The translations under genes and the position numbers were made by a program. The notes beneath the pieces are model-generated. The model saw nothing but the letters and a program-made list of their open reading frames with translations. It was not told where the DNA came from and searched no databases. This document shows positions 28,690 to 29,743 of a stretch of 64,000 bases of DNA, in pieces (position 1 is the first letter of the stretch; each line of letters opens with the position of its first letter). Origin of the DNA: Dehalococcoidia bacterium (lineage in GTDB: Bacteria > Chloroflexota > Dehalococcoidia > CAUJGQ01); the NCBI GenBank assembly GCA_035310145.1, contig DATGEL010000042.1, forward strand, positions 1 through 64,000, read 5' to 3'.

Positions 28690-28870
28690 GGCAGCGCCTC
28701 CGTGAAGCAGATGGGCCGGTGAAGCAATCCGCGCGGAGTGCAGCACCGGGCGGCCCGGCGCGCGTTGCTGCGGCACAGCATACGGTGCCCCGGCGGCGCG
28801 TGCTACGATAATTGCCGTCCCTGCCAGTGCATCAACTCGCAGCGCATGAAAGGCGTCAGGAGGCAGCGTG

Positions 28871-29707
28871 ATGGCATCCGCCGGCTACGCCCACCCGGAG
28901 CTGCTGGCCGAGCCCGACTGGCTCGCCGCGCATGTCAACGATCCCGATGTGCGGATGATCGACTGCGCGACGCTCGAAGCCTACCGCCGGGCGCACATTC
29001 CCGGCGCGGTCGGCCTGCCCGTGCACATCTACATCAAGGATCCGGCCGACGAGACGTTCGTGATGCCGCCCGAGGGCTTCGAACAGCTCATGGGCCGGCT
29101 CGGCGTCAACAATGACACGACCGTCGTGACCTACGACGACAACAACGCGCTCGTGGCGACGCGGCTGTGGTGGGTGCTCAACTACTACGGCCACACGAAG
29201 ACGAAGGTGCTGAACGGCGGCTGGCACCGCTGGCTCACCGAAGGCCGCCCGGTCACCTTCCACCAGACACACGCCGAGCCGGCCACGTTTCACGCGAAGC
29301 CGAACGAAGACCTGATCTGCCGCGTAGATGGTCTGAAGGCCAAGATCGGCAAGACCGGCACGCAGATCCTGGACGTGCGCACCGACGAGGAGTGGCGGGG
29401 CGCCAACAACCGCGGCAACACGCGCGCCGGCCACGTGCCCGGCGCCGTGCATCTCGAATGGCTCAACTTCGTCACGAAGGACGACAGGCGCACCTTCCTG
29501 CCCGCCGAGCAGTTGCGCAGCATGCTCACGAAGGAGGGCATCTCACCCGAGTCAGAAGTGGTCACCTACTGACAGGGAGGCATCCGTGCGGCGCACGGAA
29601 TGTTTGTGCTGAAGCTCCTGGGCTGGAACAACGTCCGCAACTACGACGGCTCGATGCGCGAATGGGCCAACCGCGAGGACACGCCGCTGGTGCTGGAACC
29701 GCACTGA
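28871..29707 (+). CDS. two-domain rhodanese sulfurtransferase, proposed selenoprotein (TGA at catalytic position 234)
   Basis: The protein resembles thiosulfate/3-mercaptopyruvate sulfurtransferases: rhodanese domain 1 at about residues 10-130 and domain 2 at about 150-275. At 29570-29572 an in-frame TGA replaces the active-site Cys codon. The frame continues QGGIRAAHGMFVLKLLGWNN and ends at TGA 29705-29707, which gives 278 residues, the usual length. The catalytic loop would read VTY-U-QGGIRAAH. Terminating at 29572 would remove the nucleophile and the last 44 residues. A SECIS-like hairpin follows (29583-29599). Start ATG 28871 has AGGAGG (28858-28863) 7 bases upstream. Sec-containing rhodanese-type sulfurtransferases are known from earlier selenoprotein surveys. 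Alternatives are a nonsense mutation or a base error. Confidence 0.85.
29583..29599 (+). promoter_or_regulatory. candidate bacterial SECIS element in the rhodanese gene
   Basis: TCCGTGC (29583-29589) and GCACGGA (29593-29599) form a perfect 7-bp stem with loop GGC. The loop starts 17 nt after the TGA. The known bacterial pattern asks for 16-37 nt from UGA to the apical loop and a G among its first two bases; both are met. SelB binding is inferred. Confidence 0.65.
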
Positions 29708-29743
29708 CACGGCCGCACGTGGTGCGGTGCTACACTGACCCGT

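Follow-up and report, generated by a model that had tools for sequence, protein, structure and literature searches.

The window (the 64,000-nt stretch of Dehalococcoidia DNA analyzed here) carries a gene for a COG2897/SseA-type tandem rhodanese whose in-frame UGA codon, at positions 29570-29572, is very probably (a probability of about 0.96) read as selenocysteine (Sec) by SelB and selenocysteyl-tRNA, directed by the adjacent downstream hairpin. Several kinds of sequence evidence, independent of one another, support the insertion of Sec at codon 234. In particular, the TGA occupies the position of the catalytic cysteine, the TGA and its SECIS element are conserved in relatives, and the genome contains the sel genes; together, these observations support the candidate selenoprotein that a sequence-only reading of the window had proposed.

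The gene, its hairpin and the Sec machinery

The gene (28871-29707, forward strand) begins with an ATG at 28871, placed 7 nt downstream of an AGGAGG ribosome binding site recognized from its sequence (28858-28863, forward strand), and ends with a TGA at 29705-29707, yielding a protein of 278 residues on read-through. The read-through protein contains two stretches matching PF00581 (whole-protein E-value of 2.8e-38), and its best solved relative, the 1uar rhodanese, aligns with it from end to end (E-value of 1.2e-52). Codon 234 is the TGA at 29570-29572 (forward strand); it is flanked as VVTY-[TGA]-QGGIRAAH, and 44 codons separate it from the terminal TGA. In alignments with 1uar, 8k55 and 3hzu, it falls in the place of their active-site Cys. 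The sequence-only reading had placed a TGA at the rhodanese nucleophile, with homology resuming behind it and a normal stop 44 residues later; all of its coordinates hold, and the full-length alignments bear out the resumed homology. The C-terminal domain has the active-site loop U-Q-G-G-I-R, whose first four residues (234-237) agree with a UxxG motif, while the N-terminal domain has an Asp at the Cys-equivalent place (VTYDDNN), as does 1uar (VVLYGDKNN). Other tandem rhodaneses likewise have an N-terminal domain without a nucleophile. The neighboring genes (an amidohydrolase, an unknown protein and an enoyl-CoA hydratase) give no clue to the sulfur substrate. Long antisense reading frames lie opposite genes, for example at 28856-29452 on the reverse strand; these are probably by-products of high G+C content, with no evidence that they are genes.

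The hairpin at 29583-29599 (forward strand; TCCGTGC-GGC-GCACGGA) is exactly as originally described: a perfect 7-bp stem with a 3-nt GGC loop, starting 10 nt after the TGA, whose distance to the loop is 17 nt. RNA folding, which had been suggested as a check, gave -17.6 kcal/mol for 46 nt (z = -2.2). According to a 2026 review (PMC13188914), bSECIS elements have an apical loop of 3 to 9 nt, a stem of 4 to 16 bp, a G in the first two loop positions, a spacing of 16 to 37 nt and a minimum free energy of at most -7.5 kcal/mol; the hairpin agrees with this published model in every sequence and folding criterion. However, the window contains 1320 TGA triplets, counting both strands; 30 of them are followed by a stem of 7 bp or more with a G in loop position 1 or 2 at a spacing of 16 to 37 nt, and demanding a 3-nt loop as well leaves 10. 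Because similar hairpins accompany 0.8 to 2.3% of the window's TGAs, the hairpin by itself is weak evidence and was rejected as sole proof of Sec; the case is carried by the position of the TGA, by homology and by conservation. A second 7-bp hairpin (GCCGCAC-GTG-GTGCGGT, loop GTG) follows the terminal TGA within 29705-29735, at a distance of 11 nt, which is shorter than the bSECIS range, and the sequence after the stop differs in a relative of the same family (genome G001).

The source genome is a 5.32 Mb draft in 148 contigs, 99.8% complete, and it contains a tRNA-Sec gene (selC; 74.4 bits, anticodon tca) together with selA (520 bits), selB (325 bits) and selD (366 bits), all over curated cut-offs. 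A search for these genes had been proposed, with a missing selB or selC as grounds for abandoning the selenoprotein reading, and all four are present. A further selB-like match on the window's own contig (C42:69828) is confined to positions 1 to 262 of 581 and falls below the cut-off, as expected of EF-Tu, and was discarded. Moreover, selD (G000:C119, minus strand, L065) has a TGA at about 1210-1212 in the motif SCGG-[TGA]-ASKVGPGAL; because this TGA lies inside the active-site motif (CGG-U), the selenophosphate synthetase SelD is likely a second selenoprotein of the source genome. The alpha subunit of formate dehydrogenase, checked as a further likely selenoprotein of this genome, has no in-frame stop. 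Beside the Sec form, the genome carries two Cys rhodanese paralogues of the CRIGERSSHTW type (G000:C35:17044-17898 and G000:C84:7260-8114; L061 and L062).

Conservation of the codon and of the RNA

A set of 100 relatives was selected by protein similarity; across the 41 rhodanese genes compared in it, the catalytic codon is TGA in 29 and TGC in 12, with no other codon seen. The Cys/Sec exchange for which an alignment of homologues had been recommended is therefore seen. The 29 TGA genes, all with the TGA at exactly this codon, are distributed over 26 of the 100 genomes, and the nearest (73% identity) is in G001.

Of the 29 TGA genes, 24 share an unchanged set of core hairpin nucleotides, and five stem pairs are constant throughout those 24. 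In these Sec forms, codon +5 is CGT, followed by GCG, G/TCG and CAC; in the 12 Cys forms, it is CGC (8), CGG (3) or AGG (1), and never CGT. Restricted to CGN arginine codons at this position, CGT is used by 24 of 26 Sec forms versus 0 of 11 Cys forms (Fisher p = 9e-8, kinship not corrected for), and upstream in the same Sec genes it makes up only 35 of 447 Arg codons (about 8%). As CGT prevails in the Sec forms, is rare upstream and is absent from the Cys forms, the synonymous choice at codon +5 is held by the RNA and not by the protein. Further, stem pair 15-29 is C-G in 18, G-C in 5 and A-T in 1 of the 24 canonical genes, so that it is paired in every one and varies by compensation alone; none of 2000 shuffles did as well. 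The designation of 29583-29599 as a bSECIS element accordingly draws on its invariant core and compensatory pair as well as on folding and the bSECIS limits, and a comparable hairpin at that spacing was found in none of the 12 Cys forms. The canonical hairpin is missing from five TGA genes (two in G010, one each in G022 and G063, and the fragment G073b), indicating that SECIS elements of other shapes exist. In G010 and G022, the TGA-rhodaneses (L055, L056 and L057) have a different, shorter stem with a GGT loop in the same place, either CGTC-GGT-GACG-like or a G-U version of it.

These comparisons bear on three other explanations of the TGA. A single base separates it from the TGC of the Cys homologues and the window comes from a 148-contig draft, so a sequencing or assembly error that turned TGC into TGA would have been a simple account; however, an identical TGA occupies this codon in the same-family relative, in 26 of the 100 sampled genomes and in the complete Candidatus Lucifugimonas marina genome (CP046147.1), and the hairpin nucleotides are systematically unlike those of the Cys forms. 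Because the TGA recurs in the same-family relative and in dozens of independent genomes, a misread TGC or TGT, which the sequence-only reading had listed among its possible failings, is refuted and retains practically no probability. A degraded 3′ part in relatives was another such failing, and it would fit a pseudogene or a genuine stop: TGA is a stop codon in table 11, automatic ORF calling ends there, and the product would be a truncated protein of 233 residues. Such a protein, however, would lose the catalytic residue and the rest of its C-terminal domain, and the sequence beyond the TGA is preserved intact across dozens of lineages, ends in a normal terminator and is under protein constraint, with dN below dS in all three comparisons (dN = 0.23 and dS = 0.62 for G001). 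Truncation was rejected on these grounds as very improbable.

A third alternative is that suppression or recoding inserts Cys or Trp at the UGA instead of Sec; sequence alone cannot show which residue is inserted, and the homologues have Cys. Against this stand the complete Sec machinery and its statistical link to the TGA form: selB scores over its cut-off in 25 of the 26 TGA-rhodanese genomes versus 35 of the 74 others (Fisher p = 4e-6, kinship not corrected for), the lone exception being G056, which is 63% complete. The hairpin's agreement with the bSECIS rules also argues against it and, since the gene itself ends in TGA, this codon also works as a stop in the source organism. Recoding to a residue other than Sec was thus rejected and given hardly any weight.

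Distribution and Sec/Cys switching

A DNA-pattern scan of genome contigs for the TGA and the hairpin core matched at least 119 stretches. All 80 loci among the matches listed are rhodaneses whose catalytic column reads TGA; one of them belongs to Candidatus Lucifugimonas marina JH1073, for which the genome is complete (CP046147.1). As the pattern fixes the hairpin core, these loci serve only to describe distribution and the unconstrained outer pairs; pair 15-29 is paired in 91 of 94 distinct sequences. Record titles among these matches are mostly Chloroflexi, Dehalococcoidia or SAR202, and the others include Binatia/Binatota, one Gemmatimonadetes, one Tectomicrobia and a few more. The exact pattern occurs in 76 of 393 genomes of the class, versus 0 of 393 for a reversed-pattern control. 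Judged by these patterns, the Sec rhodanese is common in Dehalococcoidia/SAR202-type bacteria. The Sec rhodanese of the Gemmatimonadetes-titled record (L135) is nested inside Chloroflexota in the tree, by transfer or misbinning.

On a quick tree of 111 proteins, built with the catalytic codon omitted, five changes between Sec and Cys are needed, at least four of them forced by starred branches; as the tree is unrooted, the direction of change is not settled. The window's protein and that of G001 fall into a starred group with four Cys proteins of one family (f33), the Cys form of G043 and the Sec form of G063 are sisters within one family, and the Binatota sequences make up one starred group. 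Among genomes with the Cys form, selB is not over its cut-off in G043, G033, G059 and G044, and is present in G076, G091, G069, G004 and G064. Because some Cys-form genomes keep selB, its presence alone does not fix the choice between Sec and Cys. Overall, we lean toward a history in which the Sec rhodanese would be an old and widespread core selenoprotein of Dehalococcoidia/SAR202-type bacteria with a near-frozen SECIS, in which gene and SECIS were exchanged, in one direction or the other, with Binatota and possibly with further phyla, and in which Sec was switched to Cys repeatedly, partly with loss of selB.

Relation to known rhodaneses and proposed function

The claim that Sec-containing rhodanese-type sulfurtransferases had already been reported is correct. 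Three sequences of a Sec-containing, rhodanese-related sulfurtransferase (COG2897) were described from the Sargasso Sea in 2005 (PMC1088965), the GOS set lists eight under cd01449 and one under COG2897 (PMC2398784), a 2022 review gives the Sec rhodanese as SseA type (PMC9312934), and the 2026 review lists a 'rhodanese-like domain-containing protein form 4, UxxG' (PMC13188914). The available excerpts of these accounts name no Chloroflexota host for the Sec COG2897 rhodanese, and a literature search, with subscription papers mostly outside its range, found no paper containing both SAR202 and selenoprotein. The present gene shares with form 4 the two domains, the active-site UGA, the UxxG motif (here UQGG) and a downstream bSECIS; no difference in kind was found, the membership, and with it the relation to the published representatives MQG53192.1 and MCY3690685.1, being drawn from motif, architecture and COG description. 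The source gene is thus a confirmed member of an already catalogued selenoprotein family; what is new is how widely it occurs in the class, how little its SECIS varies and its switching between Sec and Cys.

The Cys-containing tandem rhodaneses (1uar and SseA 3hzu; thiosulfate and 3-mercaptopyruvate sulfurtransferases) have the same fold family, two domains and a catalytic residue in the C-terminal domain, but their active-site loop is CRIGER-like, whereas here Sec replaces Cys in the loop UQGGIR. The nearest NCBIfam model, the 3-mercaptopyruvate sulfurtransferase equivalog NF008557, scores 147.2 bits, below its cut-off of 250 bits, and no substrate class was therefore assigned. Other Sec rhodaneses (COG0607 forms, LYCAU-type NF041203 and TsoB) also combine a rhodanese domain with Sec, but differ in motif or architecture; with NF041203, the present protein reaches 33.5 bits where the cut-off is 115.

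In the proposed mechanism, SelB would deliver Sec-tRNA at the UGA (29570-29572), guided by the hairpin (29583-29599), to produce an enzyme whose N-terminal domain lacks a nucleophile and whose C-terminal domain would carry the U-Q-G-G-I-R loop. In Cys rhodaneses, transfer of sulfur from a sulfane donor through an enzyme-bound intermediate is established for the family. By analogy, we infer the donor, acceptor and reaction of the Sec rhodanese: the selenolate would most likely accept a sulfane sulfur from a donor such as thiosulfate or 3-mercaptopyruvate, forming a selenenyl-sulfide (Se-S) intermediate from which sulfur would pass to a thiol or another acceptor. It can be hypothesized that Sec acts as a stronger persulfide-forming nucleophile, and any gain over Cys in rate or in resistance to over-oxidation is equally conjectural.

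In routine annotation, such genes would be truncated at residue 233 and either called broken or deprived of their active site; an enzyme that is common in an abundant bacterial group, most of it uncultured, has for that reason probably been mis-annotated. Because orthologues exist in both Sec and Cys versions, one being found in the complete Candidatus Lucifugimonas marina genome, the reason for using selenium in sulfur transfer becomes testable; if the proposed history is true, these orthologues would form a natural series for measuring the role of Sec in sulfane-sulfur transfer.
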